Below, piece by piece: positions 14,152-36,747 of a stretch of DNA of 64,000 bases. Location: NCBI GenBank assembly GCA_040183005.1, contig JAMPIW010000007.1, positions 1,620,188 to 1,684,187 on the forward strand, in the 5' to 3' direction. How positions within the stretch are numbered: the stretch's first letter is position 1; each line of letters opens with the position of its first letter. A model generated the notes under the pieces. That model worked only from the letters and a program-made list of their open reading frames with translations, was not told where the DNA came from and searched no databases. Made by a program: the position numbers and the translations under genes. This DNA comes from Gammaproteobacteria bacterium. GTDB taxonomy: Bacteria; Pseudomonadota; Gammaproteobacteria; Ga0077554; Ga007554.

Positions 14152-16467
14152 TCAGCCACCGCCCGCAATCTTCGCCTTGCCAGGCAAAACATGCTTCGCG
14201 GACGGCGCGCCCCCTCTTACCAGACTGCCAAGGCCGGCATCTTCCAGCCGGGCATTGAGGTAAGTGCGGATAGAGGCAGGGTCTTCCAGGGCGAGTGCAT
14301 GTTCAAGCATCTCCCGTGCATGGGTGCGACTGATGTTGCGTATCACCCATTTGATGCGCGGCAGGCTGGCGGCGCTCATGCTCAGGCTGTCGATACCCAT
14401 GCCCAGCAACAGCAGCGCCGCCGCCGGATCACCGGCCATTTCTCCGCATACGCTGACAGGTTTGCCTTGCCGGTGCGCGCCTTCGACCACTTGCATGAGG
14501 GCGCGTAGCACAGCGGGGTGCAGCGAATCGTAGAGGTTTGCGACGCGGGCGTTGTTGCGGTCTACGGCAAGCAGATACTGGGTAAGGTCGTTGGTGCCGA
14601 CCGAAAGGAAATCCACGCGCCGCGCCAGTGCTTCCGTCTGGTACACCGCAGAGGGCACCTCCACCATCGCGCCGACACGGGGCCGCACGATGGTTTCGCC
14701 TGCCTCGACCAATTCCCGGTAGGCGCGGTCCAGTAGTCTCTGCGCCTCGTCGATTTCGGTGACACCACTGATCATGGGCAACAGCACGTGCAGGTTGTTC
14801 AACCCCGAGCTGGCGCGCAACATGGCGCGCAGCTGCACGATAAAAATTTCGGGATGGTCCAAGGTAATGCGGATGCCGCGCCAACCGAGGAAGGGGTTGT
14901 CTTCGCTGATGGGAAAATACGGCAAATCCTTGTCACCGCCCACATCCAGTGTGCGCAGCGTCACTGGCCGGGGCGCGTAGGCCTCCAGCACCTGACGGTA
15001 GACCCGGCTCTGCTCCTCTTCGCTCGGAAAGCGCTGGCGGATCATGAAAGGGATTTCGGTGCGGTACAGCCCGATACCCTCCGCGCCGCTGTTGAGCGAC
15101 GAGGCGACATCCGACAGCAATCCGGTATTGGCATACAGGGGAACATGGATGCCGTCCAATGTCACGGCGGGGAGGTCGCGCAATTCCGCAAGACCGGCGG
15201 CGATCTCCGCCTCTTCGCGCTCCAGGCGAGCGTATTCAACGCGCAGACTGGCAGTGGGTTTTACGTACACCCTGCCCATATGGCCATCGACGATCATTTC
15301 CTGCCCATCCATGCGCGCCACGGGCAGATCGTTCGCGCCCACTACGGCAGGGATGCCCATCGCGCGCGCGAGAATGGCGACATGCGAGGAGCTGGAGCCG
15401 CGCGCCGATATCACACCGACCAGCCGCTCATGGGGCACTTCGGCAAGCAGGGTGGCGGTAATCTCTTCACCCACCAGGATAGTCCTTGGTGGATACGGCG
15501 GTTGGCTACGCTTGCCGCTTTGCAGACATACCAGAATGCGCCGCCCCAGGTCGCGGATATCTTCGGCGCGTTCGCGGATGTAGGGGTCATCCATCTCGTC
15601 GAAGATGCGCGCGTGTTCGTTGACCGTTTCGCGCAAGGCGCCGGAAGCCCAGCTCCCGGCGCGGATGCGCTGCACCGTGTTGTCTACCAGGCTGTCGCTG
15701 CCCAGCATAAGCCGGTAGGCATCGAACAACGCGCGGTCTTCGGCTTGCAGGAGTGGGCTGAGGCGCTCGCTAAGCGTCTGGATGTCGGCCCGCACCGCTT
15801 CAACCGCCGCCATGAAGGCGGTCACTTCAGCGTCAATATTGGTGATTTTGCGATCCGGCACGGCGTCCAGATCCGCAGCGGGATAGACGACCATCGCCGT
15901 GCCTATGGCTACGCCCGGCGCGCCGGGCAGGCCATCAATGGGGCGCAGCTCGTGCGCGGCGCTACCATTCAGCCCGTCGATTCCGCCGCTCGCCTGGGCA
16001 TGGGCGATAGCTCCGGAAAGCTGGGCTGCAACGGTCACCAGAAAGGCGACCTCGTCTTCCCCAAAGCGACGACGGGCAAACTGACGCACCACAAGCACGC
16101 CCAACACCCTGCGATGATGAATGATTGGCACGCCGAGAAAGGCATGATAGTACTCCTCCCCGGTCTCGGCGATGAAACGGTAACGCGGATGGCTGGTGGC
16201 GCTGTCAAGATTGAGCGGCTCGGCGGTCTCAGCGACCACGCTGATGATGCCCTCGCTCGGTGCCAGGCGCACCACGCCGATAGCGGCTGGGTTCAGCCCG
16301 TCGCTGGCCATCAGCACATAGTGCTCGGTGTCAGGGTCGGCCAGATATACCGAGCAAACCTCAACGGTCATCTCTTGCTTGACGCGCTTGACGATAATGG
16401 CGAGCGCCTGCCCCAAATTCTGGGCGGTGTTGACCTCTTGGATAATGCGGCGCAGGATGTCGAGCAT
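14152..16467 (-). CDS. ptsP: phosphoenolpyruvate-protein phosphotransferase PtsP (EI-Ntr)
   Basis: The first enzyme of the nitrogen phosphotransferase system, transferring phosphate from PEP to NPr. The 771-residue product has an N-terminal GAF sensor domain (about 1-160), then the EI N-terminal domain with the phosphohistidine in ARGSSSSHVAILARAMGIPAVVG. The PEP-binding TIM barrel follows (GIGLYRTEIPFM, GTNDLTQYLLAVDRNN, SVCGEMAGDP). The rppH-ptsP order is a standard gammaproteobacterial arrangement. The ptsO and ptsN partners are not in the window. Confidence 0.97.
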   Translation of the reverse strand: MLDILRRIIQEVNTAQNLGQALAIIVKRVKQEMTVEVCSVYLADPDTEHYVLMASDGLNPAAIGVVRLAPSEGIISVVAETAEPLNLDSATSHPRYRFIAETGEEYYHAFLGVPIIHHRRVLGVLVVRQFARRRFGEDEVAFLVTVAAQLSGAIAHAQASGGIDGLNGSAAHELRPIDGLPGAPGVAIGTAMVVYPAADLDAVPDRKITNIDAEVTAFMAAVEAVRADIQTLSERLSPLLQAEDRALFDAYRLMLGSDSLVDNTVQRIRAGSWASGALRETVNEHARIFDEMDDPYIRERAEDIRDLGRRILVCLQSGKRSQPPYPPRTILVGEEITATLLAEVPHERLVGVISARGSSSSHVAILARAMGIPAVVGANDLPVARMDGQEMIVDGHMGRVYVKPTASLRVEYARLEREEAEIAAGLAELRDLPAVTLDGIHVPLYANTGLLSDVASSLNSGAEGIGLYRTEIPFMIRQRFPSEEEQSRVYRQVLEAYAPRPVTLRTLDVGGDKDLPYFPISEDNPFLGWRGIRITLDHPEIFIVQLRAMLRASSGLNNLHVLLPMISGVTEIDEAQRLLDRAYRELVEAGETIVRPRVGAMVEVPSAVYQTEALARRVDFLSVGTNDLTQYLLAVDRNNARVANLYDSLHPAVLRALMQVVEGAHRQGKPVSVCGEMAGDPAAALLLLGMGIDSLSMSAASLPRIKWVIRNISRTHAREMLEHALALEDPASIRTYLNARLEDAGLGSLVRGGAPSAKHVLPGKAKIAGGG

Positions 16468-25421: not shown

Positions 25422-27401
25422 ATGGAAGAAGATCGTTTTAAACAACAAATGCGCGCCTTCGATCATTGGAAGGCCGATACCGCGCGAACCATCCAGAGCT
25501 TCATGGACTGGCTCGACAGCCAGCAACTGGGCACCCCCGAAATGGGTTTGCGCCTTTATAATGTGATTGAAACGCTGCGTTCCGACCGCTTGACCATCGC
25601 CTTCGTGGCGGAATTCTCGCGTGGCAAGACCGAGCTGATCAACGCCATTTTCTTCGCCGACTACAAGCGCCGCCTGCTGCCATCCGATGCCGGCAGAACA
25701 ACAATGTGCCCCACCGAGCTGTTTTACGACACCGTGGAGGATGATGCCTATATTCGCCTGCTGCCCATTGAGACACGGCAAGAGGATGTCAGTATCGCCG
25801 ACCTGAAACGTGATCTTTCGCGCTGGACCACCTTCCCCCTGAATATCAATTCTCCGGAAAGCATGGCGGAGACGCTGCAACAGGTAGTCAAGGTCAAGCA
25901 CGTACCCATCGCCGAAGCGCAGCGTCTAGGGCTTTATAACGAAGACATGAATGCCAGCATGAACGCGGGCGATGTCGCCCCGGACACGGCGGAAATTCCG
26001 CAGTGGCGCCACGCACTCATTAGCTTTCCTCACCCCCTCCTCCAGCAAGGCCTGGTGATATTAGATACGCCGGGACTCAACGCCCTCGGTAACGAGCCGG
26101 AACTTACTCTGAACATGCTGCCCAGCGCCCAGGCAGTGCTGTTTGTGCTGGCGGCGGATACCGGCGTCACCCGCAGCGATCTCGATATGTGGCAAAACCA
26201 CATCAAAGGCTGTCGCGGCGAAGGGAACAATGGCCTGGTGGCTGCGCTCAACAAGATTGACACCCTGTGGGATGAAATAAAAAATCCGGCAGAAGTCGAC
26301 GCCACCATTGAGTCGCAGTTGCGGGAGACCGCACGCATGCTCGGCATCGATGCTGGCAATGTATTCCCCGTATCGGCGCAAAAAGCGCTGCTGGCAAAGA
26401 TCCGCCAGGATCATGACCTGCTGGAACGCAGCCGACTTCCGACGCTAGAAGCATTCCTGTCCGACAATATTGTGCCCGCCAAACAATCCATTGTGCGCGA
26501 CAATATCGTGGGCATAGCTGGCGCCCTGCTCGGCGATGTTCGCCACACCCTCGAATCACGGATGCACAACACCCAACAGCAAATTGATGGACTGAAGGGA
26601 CTGGAAAACACCAACGCGGATGTGCTGCAACATTTAGTGCGCAAAACACGTGAAAAACAGGCCGCCTTCAACAAAAAAATGGAACACTTTCAGTCCAGCC
26701 GCCGCGTCCTGGCGCAGCAGGCAAAAATCATTATGGATGCACTCAGCCTCCCCGTCTTTGACACCATGATGGGGTCTGCGCGCAAGGAGATGGAAGGCAG
26801 CTGGAGCACGGGTGGGCTGAAAAAAGGCATGCAGACATTTTTCGACAACATGCGCGACACCATGCAGATCGTATCCAGGCAGGCCGATCAAACCTACGCC
26901 GTAATCCAAACGATTTATAACAAATTCCATGAGGACGGCGGCCCCTCCCACGTCATGCCGAAAATGTTCTCCGTGAAGAAATACTCGGAGGATTTCGAGA
27001 AGCTCTATTGGGAGGCTGAAAAATTCCGCAACAGTCCTGTAACCACCATGACGGAACAGAGCTTTGTCGTCAAAAAATTCTTCATCTCACTGGGAAGCCA
27101 CGCCCGGTACATTATCTCCAAGGCCAGCCAGGAGGCTGACACCTGGCTTAAAGAAATCATGCACCCGCTGGTAAAACAGATCAACGAAAGTAAGCTGCAA
27201 CTCGAACAGCAAATGGCAACCTTGAACAAGGTGAACGACTCCAAGGACAATCTGCAGGAAAAGCTCAAAGAACTCGAAATGCAAAACGCAGCACTTGAGG
27301 CACAACTTGCTACGCTGGCCGAGATGGAAAAAACAATACGCATGCCTCTCCCTGGCGAGGGTGCGCCCGCCATGCCGGAACGCCTTTCGAGCGTGGCGTG
27401 A
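25422..27401 (+). CDS. bacterial dynamin-like GTPase
   Basis: A 659-residue large GTPase. The G domain at about residues 50-330 has P-loop AEFSRGKTELIN, G3 LDTPGLN and G4 NKIDTLW. A long helical region follows, with a coiled coil near the C-terminus (ESKLQLEQQMATLNKV to MEKTIRMP). The first P-loop glycine is replaced by Ala (AxxxxGKT), and no transmembrane helix is evident. Bacterial dynamin-like proteins remodel or guard membranes; the role of this one is unknown. GTG 25413 is a possible earlier start; neither site has an ideal ribosome-binding site. Confidence 0.85.
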   Translation: MEEDRFKQQMRAFDHWKADTARTIQSFMDWLDSQQLGTPEMGLRLYNVIETLRSDRLTIAFVAEFSRGKTELINAIFFADYKRRLLPSDAGRTTMCPTELFYDTVEDDAYIRLLPIETRQEDVSIADLKRDLSRWTTFPLNINSPESMAETLQQVVKVKHVPIAEAQRLGLYNEDMNASMNAGDVAPDTAEIPQWRHALISFPHPLLQQGLVILDTPGLNALGNEPELTLNMLPSAQAVLFVLAADTGVTRSDLDMWQNHIKGCRGEGNNGLVAALNKIDTLWDEIKNPAEVDATIESQLRETARMLGIDAGNVFPVSAQKALLAKIRQDHDLLERSRLPTLEAFLSDNIVPAKQSIVRDNIVGIAGALLGDVRHTLESRMHNTQQQIDGLKGLENTNADVLQHLVRKTREKQAAFNKKMEHFQSSRRVLAQQAKIIMDALSLPVFDTMMGSARKEMEGSWSTGGLKKGMQTFFDNMRDTMQIVSRQADQTYAVIQTIYNKFHEDGGPSHVMPKMFSVKKYSEDFEKLYWEAEKFRNSPVTTMTEQSFVVKKFFISLGSHARYIISKASQEADTWLKEIMHPLVKQINESKLQLEQQMATLNKVNDSKDNLQEKLKELEMQNAALEAQLATLAEMEKTIRMPLPGEGAPAMPERLSSVA

Positions 27402-27510
27402 AGAAAAAACATTCACGCCGTCAATCCACGGACACAACCACCTCCTGTCGGGCAGAAAGCAAAGCTGTCTGCCATTAATCCCAGATCGTCCATTAGCCCC
27501 AAAACCGTTT

Positions 27511-27563
27511 GCCCTGAGCCTGTCGAAGGGCCGTTCATGGTTCGACAAGCTCACCACGAACGG
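27511..27563. repeat. extragenic palindrome (GAGCCTGTCGAA / TTCGACAAGCTC type)
   Basis: Two interleaved near-palindromes are present: GAGCCTGTCGAA with TTCGACAAGCTC, and CCGTTCATGGT with ACCACGAACGG. This sequence type recurs between genes in many proteobacterial genomes. It lies after the dynamin-like gene and could form a stable hairpin that slows 3' decay. Confidence 0.65.
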
Positions 27564-28136
27564 TGGTGTGCGCTCTATTTCGCCTAATGTAATTGACAAT
27601 CTGGGTTAATTTCATGAATCATTACGATGTCATCTGATCGCACCTGACACCACGGTTATCCGTCATCAGCCTCAATAGCACCCGCGCATATTAGAGATTT
27701 TTCACCTCACCCACCCCGCCGCGCACATACGCGAAATACGACAAACCCGGAGCACAACGTTGCCAGTGCGTTGACTGCCATCGTCTCGCGCGCATAGCGC
27801 ACGCTGCCGTCCTAAAAATATCCCAGCTTTTTGCTTGGTTTATGAATTTTGAAAAACTTGAGCCTTTATTGATATAGATCAAATACAACTTAATATAAAT
27901 CTGATGTACTTATCCCAGCTAAATTAGCTGTTCCAATACCTTTCAATAACATAAAGAGAACAGCATCTTCTGTTTCCGCGATTTTTCGTCAAGTGGCGAC
28001 TGTAAAAGGGGGTGGGATAGAAAAGATGATCGATAACTTAAGGTGCGGGGGCTTTGTTTCGGGCGTGAGGCCATCCCTTATCCCGGGAATTCGCCGAACA
28101 TATTCATAAAGTAATGAGCGATAAAAGGAAGGGTAT
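27564..28136. other. long intergenic leader before the GlyGly-CTERM/OmpA gene
   Basis: No open reading frame with a credible start was found. The interval becomes AT-rich from 27840 and contains one FNR/Anr-type box (27869-27882) about 255 bases before the next ATG. The start at 28137 has AGGAAGGG 3 bases upstream. Nothing else is recognised. Confidence 0.5.
27869..27882. promoter_or_regulatory. FNR/Anr-type binding site
   Basis: TTGATATAGATCAA matches the symmetric consensus TTGAT-N4-ATCAA perfectly. It lies about 255 bases upstream of the surface-protein gene, so its transcript probably starts within the following 100 bases. It suggests oxygen-responsive control, but whether the genome encodes an FNR homologue is not visible. 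Confidence 0.55.
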
Positions 28137-30476
28137 ATGAACGCCATTAAACAAAAGACATTAGTGAGGACGACCGCCTTAAGGGCGGCGCTACACGGTG
28201 TGGAGCCGACGGCGGCGGGAAGGAAAACATCAGGACTAATACTATTAGTTCTGATTGTCATGTGTGGGGTTTTGCCAATTCAAATGGTACAGGCCGACCC
28301 CCACACTGGCATGTCAAAGAATGTGGTGATCATCGGTGGGGCGACGGCCAGTGATTCCTGCGTCGGCACAGATGCCAACAGGGTAAGGAATGGTGGGTGC
28401 TTTCCTGTTACCGGAGCCACTGGCGAGCTGGGGGATTTTACCTTCGCTGGGATGGTCTCAGCGGATGTGAGTACGGCCACTCTGGCGAACTACGACACGG
28501 CTGTGTTGAACGTCGCCAGCAATGACATGGCTTGCAACTTAAACAAGCTCACCGCAAGCCAGAAAACGGATCTGGTGAATTTCGTCAAGAGCGGCAAGAA
28601 GCTGGTCATCTTCGACAGCGAGTGCTCCACCCAGGACTACAGCTGGCTGCCGTTCCCCTTCACCACTGCCAATCCGGGCGCCCAGGGCGCGAATGGGACT
28701 CTAAACATCCTTGAGGAAAACACACTTTCGTCCAAGGACCCGGCAAATGTACATTACATCGACGCAACTTTCCTAGGAGGGAGCACGGATGCGGTGGGGG
28801 ATATGAATGTAATGACTACATTTGATCCCAACTGGTGCGTAGATATGTCTGGCACCAACGCTAACCAGATCACGGGGCCGGTGCATACCTACGCCAAATA
28901 TCCCGCTGGGACAGATGCGGGGCTGATCATCTATAACGGACTGGATGTTGACTACCTGAACCCTACCAGCACGAACGATGGCTCAAAGAACCTGAGGAAG
29001 ATGTGGGTACAGGAGTTGCAGCAGCCATTCAACCCCTCCAATCTGCCCTGCGGTGTCACGGTGGCAGGCATAACATTAGCGCCAGTGGCCGCCACCAACC
29101 CAACCGGGGGGAACCATACCGTTACCGCCAACCTCACCGATCTGCTGGGCAAGCCGACCGTTGGCGTTTTGGTGGGATTCGAGGTTCTTGCGGGAGGAGT
29201 AAATGCGGGTGCCACTGGAACCTGCAACCCTGGAGACTGCAAGTCAGATGCGGCGGGTAACGTCAGCTTCACTTACAAGAGCAATGGTGCTGTGGGCGCT
29301 GATCAGATAAAGGCCTGTTACGTCAACGGTGGAAGTCAGAAAATATGCTCGCAGGTGGTGACAAAAGCATGGGTGGTTAGCATAGGTGTGGCATTAACAC
29401 CGACGGTGTCCACCAATACAGCCGGAGGAAGCCATACCGTTACAGCAGCGCTTGCCGATCCACAGGGTAACCCGCAAGGTGGTGTGCCTGTGACATTCAA
29501 GTTTATATCGGGACCAAATGCGGAGGCTACCGGAACCTGCAACCCTGGAGACTGTAAATCAGACTCGGCAGGGAATGTCAGTTTCACCTATCAGAGTAAT
29601 GGCTTTGTAGGCACTGACAAAATAGAGGTTTGCTTCACAAATGAAATAGGCCAACAAGTGTGCTCACAGGTGGCGACCAACGAGTGGAAGGAAGCTCAAT
29701 CCACCGCTATTCCGCAAGACTTCACCCTTGAAGGCAAGGGCGGCGGAGGCAGCATAGGTCTGCTGGACCTGGCGCTGGGGTTAGGCTGTGCGGGGTTTGC
29801 CTTGATCAGCAGGAGACGCAGGACTGTGGTAGCTGGCCTGTTAAGCTGTCTGGTAGTTACAACCGCTGTCATCGCAACCCCGCCTGCACTGGCGGCTGTT
29901 CCCGGCTGGTACGCGGGCGCCAGCGGCGGATGGACGAAGGGCAAATTCAGCTCATCCGACCTCCAGGGGGACTTGGCGGCCAAGGGCTACAACAGCCTGG
30001 ACTCAGTAAATGTTGACAACACTGACACTGGCTGGAAGCTGTTTGGCGGTTATCAGTTCAACCCGTTCATTGCCGCCGAGGCCAGCTATGTTGACCTGGG
30101 GGATATCACCTCCACGGTCAAGGGGAAGACCGATCCGGCCAACATTCCCCAGCCATTGCTAAATGATGCCGCCGACGTGCACGGCTATCTGGCCAAGGGC
30201 TGGACACTGGCGGGCGTTGGCATATGGCCGGTAAAACCGACAGTGTCCTTGTTTGCCAAGGCGGGGCTGTTTGCCTGGACGGCAGATGTCGATATCAAAG
30301 AAGTATCGAGCGGGTTGAGCACCTCACGCGGCGCGAATGGCACCAATGGCATGTTTGGCGTGGGTGCGCGGTTCATGCCTCATCCCAAGTGGGAGTTGCG
30401 TGCCGAGTATGAGCGCTATCAGGTGAGCAGCGATTGGGCCAATTTCTTCTCGCTCGGCGCAGCCTATCACTTCTGA
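28137..30476 (+). CDS. surface protein: Big-type repeats, internal GlyGly-CTERM signal and C-terminal OmpA-like barrel
   Basis: A 779-residue fusion. A long signal peptide (cleavage near VQA-DP, residue 54) leads into an unrecognised domain (55-305) and two Ig-like repeats (about 309-400 and 416-505), each with TGTCNPGDCKSD-AGNVSFTY. Residues 535-562 are GGGG, a hydrophobic helix and RRRR, which is the layout of a GlyGly-CTERM sorting signal. Directly after comes a second signal-peptide-like helix with PALA-A near 586, then an outer-membrane beta-barrel domain (about 590-779; GWYAGASGGW start, GAAYHF end). TTG 29802 or GTG 29826 could allow separate translation of the barrel. Rhombosortase processing is an inference; no such protease gene is in the window. 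Confidence 0.85.
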   Translation: MNAIKQKTLVRTTALRAALHGVEPTAAGRKTSGLILLVLIVMCGVLPIQMVQADPHTGMSKNVVIIGGATASDSCVGTDANRVRNGGCFPVTGATGELGDFTFAGMVSADVSTATLANYDTAVLNVASNDMACNLNKLTASQKTDLVNFVKSGKKLVIFDSECSTQDYSWLPFPFTTANPGAQGANGTLNILEENTLSSKDPANVHYIDATFLGGSTDAVGDMNVMTTFDPNWCVDMSGTNANQITGPVHTYAKYPAGTDAGLIIYNGLDVDYLNPTSTNDGSKNLRKMWVQELQQPFNPSNLPCGVTVAGITLAPVAATNPTGGNHTVTANLTDLLGKPTVGVLVGFEVLAGGVNAGATGTCNPGDCKSDAAGNVSFTYKSNGAVGADQIKACYVNGGSQKICSQVVTKAWVVSIGVALTPTVSTNTAGGSHTVTAALADPQGNPQGGVPVTFKFISGPNAEATGTCNPGDCKSDSAGNVSFTYQSNGFVGTDKIEVCFTNEIGQQVCSQVATNEWKEAQSTAIPQDFTLEGKGGGGSIGLLDLALGLGCAGFALISRRRRTVVAGLLSCLVVTTAVIATPPALAAVPGWYAGASGGWTKGKFSSSDLQGDLAAKGYNSLDSVNVDNTDTGWKLFGGYQFNPFIAAEASYVDLGDITSTVKGKTDPANIPQPLLNDAADVHGYLAKGWTLAGVGIWPVKPTVSLFAKAGLFAWTADVDIKEVSSGLSTSRGANGTNGMFGVGARFMPHPKWELRAEYERYQVSSDWANFFSLGAAYHF

Positions 30477-32500
30477 TCGTTTGCATCTGCTGCAGGAGGA
30501 GAAAACCGGGCCACCATGCCCGGTTTTCTTTTGCGCACACGGTTGAGCCACGCCGCCATCCCCATACAAATCAATGCCGCCATATCAAACGCGCCGCCTC
30601 CTCCAGCAGTCTCCGAGGCGGCCAAATTAACCGTATCGGAAGCCGCCGGACTGATGTTGCCGGTGGCATCCCTCAGCCAGGCGTAAACGGTTTTGTTGCC
30701 GCCTCCAGCGCTCAAGGTATAGGGAAGGCTCGCCTGATAACTGGTGGCAATGGGTGTCGGGGTGAAATCGGCATCAGAGGGCGGGGTGGGATGTTCGGTG
30801 AGGTAGTAGCCGCTTACGCCCACATCACTGCTGCCGTTCAGAGATACGGTGACATTTCTTGAAGATACCTCGGTTGCCCCTTGGTTGATGTTTATCGAGA
30901 CCTGGGCCAGGGAAGCGCTGCCAGTGATGGGCAGGCTGCTCACCAGCGCATAGGCCTGATCGCCCTGCACTTTAATGCCTTTGACCTTCACATGCCAGGC
31001 GCCGGCCATCGGAGTATCGACCTCGACCTGCTCTATGTTATCCACCCGGTTGGGGCCGCTGGCGATGGCCGGGGCGGCAGGATTTGCGAGGCCTGCGAGA
31101 CTATAGGGATAGTAGGTCACGCCATTGGGTGCGATGAGTTCAAGATCGAGATCATTGACCAGCGCCTTGGTGGCGTCCGGCGTGCCGGGAAGATCAGTCC
31201 ATGCGATAGTGACCTTCAGCTTGGGCGTCGCTTCCGGCACCGCGAGGGGGAGCACCTGTTCCGTGCCCTCCGCCACGCTGCCGGTATCCATGCGCCGCCC
31301 GTCGCCAACACCGGCGCTGACGATGCCTGTAGCGGCCTGGGCATCCAGTAGCCCCCACCCGTAGGCATAGTCAGGCCCTTTGTTGCCCAGATCCTTGGCG
31401 GTGTGGGTGAGCAGGGCTTTGACCATGTGCGGAGAGGGTGTCTCACCCTTGGCTTTGGCGCGATAGCGCTCAATGATCAGAGCAACGGCCCCACTCACGG
31501 TGGGCGTGGACATCGACGTGCCGCTCAAACGGGTGTAACCGTTGTTCAGATACGTGGAGTACAGGCCCACGCCATCGGCGACGATATCGGGTTTGATTCG
31601 ACCATCGTCGGTGGGGCCCCATGAGCTGAAAGTAGTCATACCCCCGGCCTGATCCACAGCGCCGACGGTGATGATATTCTTGGCGACACCCACCAGCCCG
31701 ATGCTGTCATAGTCACCGTCCGGCGCGTGCTCATCAGTATGCAGGGTGGATGAGTCGCCGATGTGGTAATGGGGCGCATTACCAGCGCCGGTATCGCTGC
31801 GGTCGTTACCCGCCGATTTGACGACAATCAGGGCATGATCGGCGACAAGCTGATCCCACAGGCGCGTAACATAGCCATAGGCGCCAAAATCCGGCTCTTT
31901 GGTGTTGCTCGGGCCGCCGTACCACACCCACTTACCGCCACCATAGCGGTTGTATTGCCAGCCGGCAGCGTAATTCCACGAGTGATTGCTCAGCGCCATC
32001 CCCTTCGATGCTTGCGCCTCAACCTGCTGCCCAAGCGTGTCGCCATAATAGTCATGGGACAGCAGGGAGGCGCCTGGCGCCATGCCTCGCGCCATGGGAG
32101 AGGCGAGGCCTGAGCCGATCAGGGTACCTGCAACGTGAGTAGCATGACCGGAGACGGTGCTTCCTTCGGCCATGGTGACGCGGCCCGCCAAATCGGGATG
32201 GGATGCCTGCGCCGCCCCTTCATCCCAGGCGCCAATCACCACGCCACTGCCTGAGAGGTTATAGGGCGCCGTCCAGAGGCGATCCACCTTGGAGGCCGCT
32301 GCCGCCTCGACATTACTGGGAATTTTATCCGGCTCCTCGTTCACCGTATAACGCAGAGGAGAACCGGTATATCCCAGGCTCCATGATATGCTTTCAATGC
32401 TGTCGTGAGACAAACATGCGCCCAATAGCACGAATAGCGTGATAATCACCGCTGGGCGTGTTTGTCTGTATTCAGAATGAGTGGGGGGTTTGTCGACCAT
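30467..32500 (-). CDS. S8 (subtilisin-like) peptidase with GlyGly-CTERM-like tail
   Basis: A 677-residue exported serine peptidase. The hydrophobic N-terminal segment contains a possible lipobox (LLGAC, Cys29). Catalytic residues are Asp93 (GAWDEG), His119 (GHATHVAGT) and Ser in LSGTSMSTPTVSGA. A beta-sandwich domain (AWHVKVKG) and an Ig-like domain (about 520-625) follow. Near the end, AGGGGAFDMAALICMGMAAW plus NRVRKRK is a GlyGly-CTERM-type signal. It is followed by 18 extra residues encoded through the terminator hairpin shared with the convergent gene, so the original stop may have been lost. Confidence 0.9.
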   Translation of the reverse strand: MVDKPPTHSEYRQTRPAVIITLFVLLGACLSHDSIESISWSLGYTGSPLRYTVNEEPDKIPSNVEAAAASKVDRLWTAPYNLSGSGVVIGAWDEGAAQASHPDLAGRVTMAEGSTVSGHATHVAGTLIGSGLASPMARGMAPGASLLSHDYYGDTLGQQVEAQASKGMALSNHSWNYAAGWQYNRYGGGKWVWYGGPSNTKEPDFGAYGYVTRLWDQLVADHALIVVKSAGNDRSDTGAGNAPHYHIGDSSTLHTDEHAPDGDYDSIGLVGVAKNIITVGAVDQAGGMTTFSSWGPTDDGRIKPDIVADGVGLYSTYLNNGYTRLSGTSMSTPTVSGAVALIIERYRAKAKGETPSPHMVKALLTHTAKDLGNKGPDYAYGWGLLDAQAATGIVSAGVGDGRRMDTGSVAEGTEQVLPLAVPEATPKLKVTIAWTDLPGTPDATKALVNDLDLELIAPNGVTYYPYSLAGLANPAAPAIASGPNRVDNIEQVEVDTPMAGAWHVKVKGIKVQGDQAYALVSSLPITGSASLAQVSININQGATEVSSRNVTVSLNGSSDVGVSGYYLTEHPTPPSDADFTPTPIATSYQASLPYTLSAGGGNKTVYAWLRDATGNISPAASDTVNLAASETAGGGGAFDMAALICMGMAAWLNRVRKRKPGMVARFSPPAADANDQK
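30502..30532. terminator. bidirectional terminator between convergent GlyGly-CTERM genes
   Basis: A perfect 10-bp stem (30502-30511 with 30518-30527) with a 6-nt loop. CTTTT follows on plus, and the AAAA base of the stem gives a T-run on minus. It ends the plus-strand surface gene and overlaps the last codons of the subtilase. Confidence 0.85.
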
Positions 32501-33155: not shown

Positions 33156-33971
33156 TCACGCCGCGACTGATTGAGCAGAAGGCCAAATCGTCCCATTCTT
33201 CGTAATTACCTTCCACACCTCAAAGCAGCCGTTTTCCATCGCCGCCATAACCTCGCCCGCCACAGCGACACAGGGCTGGCGCTTCCCATGATAGTCAATC
33301 AGGGGTCCAACGGGTTCAAAGTGGATACTGAAGCGTCTAAGCAATCGCAACAGGGCAGGCTCCATCACTGCGTACCAGTGAGTTATGCCGTATTCAGCGC
33401 TCATCTGCACTATGCCGCCAAACAGGCCTATTACTATGTGCGGGATCAAGCGCCGCTCTATCAAGGCGATTACTTGGGGATCATTCACCTCTGGCGAGCC
33501 GCCCCAAGCAAACTCGGTCTCCGCAAACCTCTTTTTAAATTCTTTCGAAATTGCAAAACGAGAAATCTCCGCGAAGGCACTCCGCGGCACTCGTGCCAGA
33601 TCAAATGAAGGTTTATGCACTCTCATGTCACAGATTTGCTCTATGGGAAATTGTGCACCCGGGCAATCATGATCATTAAGAACCAGGCGCACCGTCCCTG
33701 CAACCATGCTCAGTCCCTGATGTACGAGCAAGCTGTGTACAGACCGCTTATCAAATTGATCGCACTCCAGTCCGTCAGGGTGCTCGCTGGGATTTTCAAA
33801 TGCGTGCTCCAAGCAATAGACCTGGTAGCGCAGACGCAACGCCTGCTCCACCTGATCAGGGGTCGTGGCTGTTCTGACGTTAAAATAACGTGTAAAGCTC
33901 TCCATCAACTCACTCATGCTCACCTCCGCGCTGTCCGCTTGACGAACCAGCCGCTCTCTATTTCGTGACAT
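33156..33971 (-). CDS. PEP-CTERM/exosortase system-associated acyltransferase
   Basis: A 271-residue GNAT-fold protein related to autoinducer synthases. Visible family parts are the N-terminal RYQVYCLEHAFE (AHL-synthase-like), the central LVAGTVRLVLND-type strand region, and ISRFAISKEFKKRF. The family is named for genomes with exosortase and PEP-CTERM proteins and is thought to help make a signal or envelope lipid; its reaction is unproven. ATG 33971 (MSRNRERL) is chosen because AAGGA lies 9-10 bases upstream; a longer frame to 34046 lacks one. No exosortase lies in the window. It is divergent from the ThiF-nitroreductase gene. Confidence 0.85.
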   Translation of the reverse strand: MSRNRERLVRQADSAEVSMSELMESFTRYFNVRTATTPDQVEQALRLRYQVYCLEHAFENPSEHPDGLECDQFDKRSVHSLLVHQGLSMVAGTVRLVLNDHDCPGAQFPIEQICDMRVHKPSFDLARVPRSAFAEISRFAISKEFKKRFAETEFAWGGSPEVNDPQVIALIERRLIPHIVIGLFGGIVQMSAEYGITHWYAVMEPALLRLLRRFSIHFEPVGPLIDYHGKRQPCVAVAGEVMAAMENGCFEVWKVITKNGTIWPSAQSVAA

Positions 33972-34087
33972 GTTTACCATATCCTTTGTAGAATCGAATG
34001 TCCGTGCACTGTTCACATTTTTCAAAATCATCACCTTAGTCATCATGGTTTATGCAATATTGATCATTAGGCATAGAGCGCAAATTA

Positions 34088-34770: not shown

Positions 34771-36747
34771 ATGTCTTTCCAGTTTAATTATGAGGAAGCA
34801 TTCAGCCGGAACATCGGCTGGGTAACCGAGCGGGAGCAGCAGATACTGCGGGGCAAAACGATCGCTATCGCCGGTATGGGCGGCGTTGGGGGCATACACC
34901 TCCTCACCCTGGCACGACTCGGCGTGGGTGCATTTCATATTGCCGATCTTGACACCTTCGAGATCGCCAATTTCAACCGCCAAGTCGGCGCCACCATGAG
35001 CGCCCTCGGGCGACCCAAGGTCGAAGTCCTCACGGAGATGGCCAAGGACATCAACCCTGAAATAAACATCAAATCCTTTCCATCGGGCATTGATGAATAC
35101 AATCTGTCGGAATTTTTTACAGGCGTGGATCTCTATGTCGACGGGCTGGATTTTTTTGCCTTTTCGGCGCGCCAGGCCACCTTCGCCGCATGCGCAAGAC
35201 TGGGCATCCCCGCCATTACCGTGGCCCCCCTGGGGATGGGTGCCGCCCTGCTCAACTTTTTGCCGGGTAAAATGACCTTCGAAGAATACTTTTGCCTGAA
35301 CGACCGGCCAGAAGAGGAAAAGGCACTGCGCTTCATGCTCGGCCTTGCACCGGCGCGCCTGCAACTCGGCTATCTGGCAGACCCAACGCGCGTAGACCTG
35401 GCCCAGCACCGCGGCCCCTCCACCATCATGGCCTGCCAGTTATGCGCCGGCGTGGCAGCGACTGAAGCACTAAAAATCCTGCTGAATCGGGGCAAGGTTA
35501 TTGCCGCCCCCCACGGACTGCACTTTGACGCCTATCGCTACAAGATGGCGCGCACCTGGCGCCCCGGCGGCAATAACAACCCCATGCAACGTCTGGCGCT
35601 GTCGATCGCCAAGCGCTATCTTAGCAAACAGACCTGCCCCGTACCCACGAAAAGTCCTGAAGTTACGGAATCCGCCCCTCAGTCAGTGATTGAAACGATT
35701 CTCGATCTGGCGCGCTGGGCGCCGAGTGGCGACAACACCCAGCCGTGGCGGTTCGAAATCGTCAGCGATCACCAGCTCATGGTCCACGGCTTCGATACAC
35801 GCGACTATTGCGTTTACGACCTCGACGGCCACCCTAGCCAGATCGCCCTGGGGGCCTTGCTTGAGACTATTTCCATCGCGGCCACTGGCCATGGGCTAAG
35901 GGCGTCGATCCAGCGCCGCGTGGATTTGCCGGAAACCACACCCACTTTTGATGTATCTTTCGAGCCCGATCCACAGATCCAGCCGGACCCGCTGATTCCA
36001 TTCATTCCGAAGCGCAGCGTGCAGCGCCGCCCCATGCAAACGCGAGCACTAACTCCGCAGGAAAAGCGCACGCTTGAAGCAGCCGTGGGCGGCACTTTCC
36101 GGATTCTGTGGCTGGAGGGATTCGGCAACAAATGGCGCACGGCGCGGCTGATGTTCGCCAACGCCGAGCTGCGCCTCACCATGCGCGAAGCCTACGAGGT
36201 GCACCGCAGCGTTATCCAGTGGAATGCCCGTTTCAGCGAAGACAAGGTGCCCGACCAGGCGATCGGACTCGACCCCCTAACTACCCGACTGATGGGCTGG
36301 GTAATGCAAAGCTGGAAACGTGTCGAATTTTTTAACGCTTTTTTGGCGGGCACCCTAGCACCGCGGATTCAACTTGACTTGATACCTGGCATTGCCTGTG
36401 CCGCCCATTTTGCCATTCTGGCCCACAAAGCCCCTGAAAAGATAGACGATTACGTGGCCGCAGGCCGGGCGGTCCAGCGTTTTTGGCTCACCGCCACCAG
36501 CCTCGGTTTGCAGTTACAGCCGGAGATGACGCCGCTCATCTTCTCCCGCTACGCGCGCAATGGCCTGAAATTTACGGGGGACGATTCGATCAAGAATAAA
36601 GCGGGACAACTGGCTGCAGAGCTCAACAATCTATTAAGTCCAAGCCCAGCTTCAAGAGCTACCTTCATGGGTAGAATTGGCGCCGGCCCCGCGGCTCAGG
36701 CGCGCTCTCTAAGGCTCTCCGTTGCGCGGCTCATGACGCGGGGCTAA
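34771..36747 (+). CDS. ThiF/E1-like adenylyltransferase fused to a nitroreductase
   Basis: 658 residues with two domains. Residues about 8-290 form a ThiF/MoeB-type adenylation domain with the nucleotide motif GMGGVGG, DLDTFEIANFNRQ and a single CQLC pair near 230; the usual second zinc CxxC is not seen. Residues about 305-600 resemble an FMN-dependent nitroreductase (DLARWAPSGDNTQPWRFEI). The fusion is sometimes named MoeY, but a molybdopterin role is not shown. E1-like plus flavoprotein pairs also occur in peptide-modifying clusters, yet no YcaO or precursor gene is evident here. It faces the exosortase-associated acyltransferase across a shared regulatory gap. Confidence 0.85.
   Translation: MSFQFNYEEAFSRNIGWVTEREQQILRGKTIAIAGMGGVGGIHLLTLARLGVGAFHIADLDTFEIANFNRQVGATMSALGRPKVEVLTEMAKDINPEINIKSFPSGIDEYNLSEFFTGVDLYVDGLDFFAFSARQATFAACARLGIPAITVAPLGMGAALLNFLPGKMTFEEYFCLNDRPEEEKALRFMLGLAPARLQLGYLADPTRVDLAQHRGPSTIMACQLCAGVAATEALKILLNRGKVIAAPHGLHFDAYRYKMARTWRPGGNNNPMQRLALSIAKRYLSKQTCPVPTKSPEVTESAPQSVIETILDLARWAPSGDNTQPWRFEIVSDHQLMVHGFDTRDYCVYDLDGHPSQIALGALLETISIAATGHGLRASIQRRVDLPETTPTFDVSFEPDPQIQPDPLIPFIPKRSVQRRPMQTRALTPQEKRTLEAAVGGTFRILWLEGFGNKWRTARLMFANAELRLTMREAYEVHRSVIQWNARFSEDKVPDQAIGLDPLTTRLMGWVMQSWKRVEFFNAFLAGTLAPRIQLDLIPGIACAAHFAILAHKAPEKIDDYVAAGRAVQRFWLTATSLGLQLQPEMTPLIFSRYARNGLKFTGDDSIKNKAGQLAAELNNLLSPSPASRATFMGRIGAGPAAQARSLRLSVARLMTRG

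Follow-up and report, generated by a model that had tools for sequence, protein, structure and literature searches.

A gene at positions 28137 to 30476 of the window (the whole stretch of 64,000 nucleotides analysed here) encodes an exported surface protein, a sorting signal, a second signal peptide and an outer-membrane barrel in one uninterrupted frame. We consider it likely, with a probability of roughly 0.7, that the product is a polyprotein cut by a rhombosortase and by signal peptidase I to yield a surface-sorted passenger and a separate barrel. What we observed directly is the reading frame and its conservation, the recurrence of the architecture, and the occurrence of rhombosortase and of the type II secretin GspD. 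The two cleavage events, the membrane topology and the destination of each product are inferred in the absence of proteomic data.

Architecture of the fused gene

The open reading frame comprises 779 codons on the forward strand with no internal stop. Its product begins with a predicted signal peptide (28137-28295, residues 1-53) that has an unusually long n-region and a cleavage site predicted from sequence after VQA; the hydrophobic stretch and the QADPH/LADPH motif are kept in relatives. The n-region also contains the palindrome-like sequence ACCGCCTTAAGGGCGGCGCT (28173-28192), a second copy of which lies at 15803-15822 with 3 mismatches. Over the coding region of this signal, dS relative to G002 is very low.

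The passenger domain (28296-29066, residues 54-310) was also found without any barrel in Methanoperedens, Methanolobus, Archaeoglobi and others. Several of these proteins end in a PEF-type tail, indicating that the passenger family ends in part at a sorting signal and that the barrel is an addition. Archaeal relatives with such tails were seen at loci L022, L023, L024, L026 and L027. The passenger may thus be a surface protein common to different domains of life, and gene transfer is possible. A fold search of the passenger returned only Ig-like and poor matches and was uninformative on the N-terminal domain. Two Big (Ig-like) repeats follow (29067-29681). These were assigned from a Pfam Big_1 match (E=1e-4; 22.8 bits, below the cut-off of 34.9) together with the alignment of relatives, two of which possess a single copy.

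The internal sorting signal (29739-29822, residues 535-562, GGGGSIGLLDLALGLGCAGFALISRRRR) presents a Gly/Ser motif (GGGGS), a hydrophobic helix with a peak hydropathy of 2.25 and an RRRR cluster, in the order typical of GlyGly-CTERM signals and conserved in four species. It is not C-terminal, being followed by 217 residues. The sequence-only reading had called this segment a GlyGly-CTERM signal, an assignment that the corresponding model, TIGR03501, failed to endorse for the window's own signal, whose helix is longer than that of the model. When nine internal signals were assessed with TIGR03501, two passed the cut-off of 15.5 bits (L065, 16.0; L066, 17.1) and four scored below it.

The RRRR cluster is common to the sorting signal and to the putative second signal peptide (29811-29894, residues 559-586), for which hydrophobicity and the small residues ahead of the barrel predict cleavage at ALA|AVPGWY. 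The remainder of the protein (29895-30473, residues 587-779) is an OmpA-type barrel. Residues 590 to 779 match the Pfam families OmpA_membrane (7e-19) and OMP_b-brl (6e-18), and the closest solved structure identified by Foldseek is OmpA (9fzd, E=1e-12). An AlphaFold2 model generated from an 11-row alignment contains eight barrel strands at high pLDDT, counted from the model's strand list after merging strands split by bulges; the hairpin preceding the barrel is poorly determined. Autotransporters of type V are defined by a C-terminal translocator barrel of 12 strands. This identity was rejected on the basis of the eight strands, the OmpA fold as best match and an Autotransporter Pfam score of just E=0.042.

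Conservation in relatives and recurrence across Gammaproteobacteria

The in-frame succession of sorting signal, signal-peptide-like segment and complete barrel, on which the earlier interpretation rested, is real. The full fusion is also present in G002 (88% identity), in G003, which has one Big repeat fewer, and in G007, a member of another genus (64% identity), with the same frame, joint and signals at loci L004, L006 and L009. These sequences also occur in public gammaproteobacterial MAG contigs (JACPOZ010000052, JAKFXX010000008 and SBBG01000215). The gene is absent from the remaining four of the order's eight genomes in our collection. Over the hairpin, dN/dS is 0.23 to 0.30 with dS between genera near saturation, and we conclude from these sequence comparisons that purifying selection acts through the fusion joint.

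Such a frame might arise artificially through loss of a stop codon, a frameshift or misassembly, and several of the genomes in question are metagenome assemblies. However, four separate assemblies agree, divergence between the genera approaches saturation at synonymous sites and the same architecture occurs in other families. An error can therefore be discounted for practical purposes. Two separate genes in relatives would have refuted the sequence-only reading; the relatives instead carry the same fusion, and the two-gene form was encountered only in other families (L068 and L118, described below).

Beyond these four species of two genera, the fusion was detected in eight further families. 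A profile of the joint plus barrel, searched against 369 genomes of the class, returned long frames with the same layout in G137, G173, G313, G134, G083 and G078. A broader profile added G132 together with G278, G016, G169 and G370, the last four belonging to one family in which an OmpA C-terminal domain comes after the barrel. In all, 15 genomes from nine families carry the same joint, with passengers that are unrelated to one another and barrels that have diverged; the passengers of the other fusions include DUF11, lectin-like, choice-of-anchor-U and TSP3 domains. All 15 fusions possess a glycine motif, a helix, a basic cluster and a second helix, and shortly ahead of the barrel comes a motif of small residues resembling a signal peptidase site, as judged without a dedicated predictor. 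The mature barrel begins a few residues past this motif in nearly all cases, the linker of L110 being longer. This recurrence suggests a rare kind of bacterial polyprotein as opposed to an error. Genomes were sorted as fused or not by eye after a search with a profile of which the glycine motif was itself a part, which makes the count of fusions a biased lower bound. Searching the orders of G083 and G137 revealed no additional fusions among their few relatives.

In a phylogeny of 39 barrels, the fused state must change six times, with at least three of the changes forced by well supported branches, which implies repeated fusion or loss during evolution. The distribution within families is patchy, and in two families (f1 and f10) the fusion has been maintained across deep divergence.

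Two loci show the components as distinct genes. In G162 (L068), a frame of 1038 codons ends in GGGGAAGPLDVALALAFGGLAGRKRRRGAGTR, its stop codon forming an ATGA overlap with the start of a barrel gene. In G186 (L118), a gene with a JDVT-CTERM-like tail, recognised by eye without confirmation by a model, is immediately followed by a barrel gene. The fusion is likely derived from an overlapping or adjacent gene pair of this kind. Among barrels of the family that stand alone, most of those inspected lack a sorting-signal gene upstream, so the link between barrel and sorting signal is not universal. At five further loci (L069, L070, L072, L073 and L115) the same barrel family directly follows FecR, cadherin or OmpA-C-type domains with no hairpin; these form a second type of passenger-barrel chain, presumably facing the periplasm.

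Rhombosortase and the proposed processing of the fusion

The absence of a rhombosortase from the genome would likewise have told against cleavage. A rhombosortase (TIGR03902) was identified approximately 650 kb from the window with a score of 170 bits against a curated cut-off of 84. Its gene (L002) has subtilase-like genes on both flanks. Rhombosortase exceeds the cut-off in 126 of the 369 genomes of the class, comprising all 13 fusion genomes considered and 113 of the 356 others (Fisher p=6e-7; p=4e-5 with one genome per family). It is present in G007 and was not found in G002, the genome of which is 78% complete. G313 encodes two rhombosortases, one directly behind the fused gene. GspD is over its cut-off in 16 of 17 genomes and is apparently split over contigs in the remaining one. 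At L075 in G292, genes for a GG-tail protein, a rhombosortase and a convergent OmpA barrel adjoin one another; in the barrel tree, the G292 barrel is sister to that of G313.

VesB of Vibrio cholerae is cleaved at its glycines by rhombosortase, and the exposed terminus bears glycerophosphoethanolamine ahead of type II export (PMC6219818). All GlyGly signals reported in PMC3237569, PMC6219818 and PMC13393428 are C-terminal. Our literature search retrieved no report of a rhombosortase cutting an internal GlyGly signal and no precedent for internal GlyGly signals, for rhombosortase acting with barrels or for bacterial polyproteins of this design. The signals themselves are known; their arrangement is new.

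For the fused protein we propose that the first signal would direct Sec export of the passenger, after which the GGGGS-helix-RRRR segment would halt transfer. The second signal peptide, sharing the basic cluster, would restart transfer to leave a short helical hairpin in the inner membrane. Once rhombosortase had cut at the glycines, the passenger would be released and then, as with VesB, probably receive a lipid modification and reach the surface through type II secretion. Cleavage by signal peptidase I after ALA would allow the barrel to fold into the outer membrane. The likely purpose would be 1:1 production of a surface protein and its partner barrel. Since the barrel starts a few residues past the second helix, we infer that signal peptidase cleavage is near-necessary for outer-membrane insertion; an uncut hairpin would be expected to keep the barrel at the inner membrane. 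The release of two products by proteases, as originally suggested, thus gains support from the conserved fusion and the rhombosortase, with cleavage itself remaining an inference. A wider generalisation, whereby a recurrent and repeatedly formed class of Gram-negative envelope polyproteins couples a rhombosortase-sorted protein to a dedicated OmpA-type barrel at 1:1, split by two membrane proteases at a shared hairpin, is advanced tentatively, our own judgement falling slightly short of even odds.

The barrel could alternatively be made from an internal start, the barrel portion of the long chain being a tolerated or dead extension. Both TTG 29802 and GTG 29826 noted in the sequence-only reading are present (29802-29828, forward strand), with the AGGAG at 29811-29815 lying upstream of the GTG only. 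Within the genus, the three species carry GTG, ATG and GTG at the site, where anti-SD pairing ranges from -6.6 to -9.5 kcal/mol, and good internal starts also exist in L065 and L112. Conversely, in the other genus the site offers no start that combines an SD with a basic n-region, and no usable SD-plus-start occurs in L062, L063, L110 or L113, ruling out an internal start as the general mechanism for at least 4 of the 15 genes. Moreover, initiation at GTG 29826 would produce a signal peptide without a basic n-region, and the Arg codons AGG/AGA yield SD-like strings by chance. We regard this alternative as unlikely; internal starts may add barrel but are not the general route. Rather less credible is a chain that stays uncut, with the passenger tethered through the membrane hairpin to the barrel or anchored by the barrel in the manner of an autotransporter. 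Passenger-barrel chains do exist, given that the same barrel family terminates the five long proteins noted above, but those proteins have no hairpin. A barrel only a few residues from a hydrophobic segment could, we infer, hardly reach the outer membrane, and no eight-strand OmpA barrel is known to translocate a passenger.

Of the rival explanations, the one that retains most force holds that two neighbouring, overlapping genes merged neutrally, each contributing its own cleavage signal, with no effect and no purpose. The ATGA overlap of L068 and the adjacent genes of L118 are consistent with such an origin, as are the patchy distribution within families and the three or more state changes on the tree. 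It leaves unexplained the association of these two particular gene types, and the fusion has been kept over deep divergence in f1 and f10. We consider a neutral merger quite possible while leaning against it. Such a merger would not conflict with the cleavage mechanism and competes only with the reason suggested for the fusion, so its probability overlaps with that of our favoured explanation, the doubly cut polyprotein.

Comparison with known systems and the surrounding genes

The VesB system shares with the window gene the Gly-rich motif, helix and basic cluster, an Ig-like domain ahead of the signal, and a genome that encodes both rhombosortase and type II secretion. The VesB signal is C-terminal, whereas that of the window gene is internal with a second protein after it. 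The window barrel resembles OmpA-family barrels in fold, length, Pfam family and a signal peptide directly before strand 1, and differs in that this signal peptide lies within a longer chain. Autotransporters likewise place a passenger before an outer-membrane barrel in a single chain but lack the eight-strand OmpA-type barrel and the intervening sorting signal and signal peptide. Polyproteins are rare in bacteria. One, FbcH of Bradyrhizobium, is a cytochrome b/c1 precursor that signal peptidase cleaves at a signal inside the chain. FbcH resembles the window gene in being a polyprotein with an internal signal peptide, and differs in having no sorting signal or rhomboid-type cut and in yielding inner-membrane respiratory proteins.

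If the fusion is cut as proposed, rhombosortase accepts internal sites, a single basic cluster can serve both a stop-transfer signal and a signal peptide, and barrels of the outer membrane may act as partners of sorted surface proteins. The system would also offer a testable handle on how GlyGly-CTERM proteins remain at the cell surface.

Downstream, a convergent S8 peptidase gene (30467-32500, reverse strand) is a neighbour kept in all four species. It encodes a GlyGly-type tail, GGGGAFDMAALICMGMAAWLNRVRKRKP, at 30521-30604, followed by 17 further residues. Upstream, at 27295-27609, both strands resemble a dispersed intergenic repeat translating as PFDRLRANG/PFALSLSKG. The gene at 33156-34046 (reverse strand) appears to encode a PEP-CTERM/exosortase-associated acyltransferase, which raises the possibility of an exosortase system as well. 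Further along, at 34771-36747 (forward strand), a ThiF/E1-like domain and a nitroreductase-like domain, both recognised by eye, follow one another in one frame.
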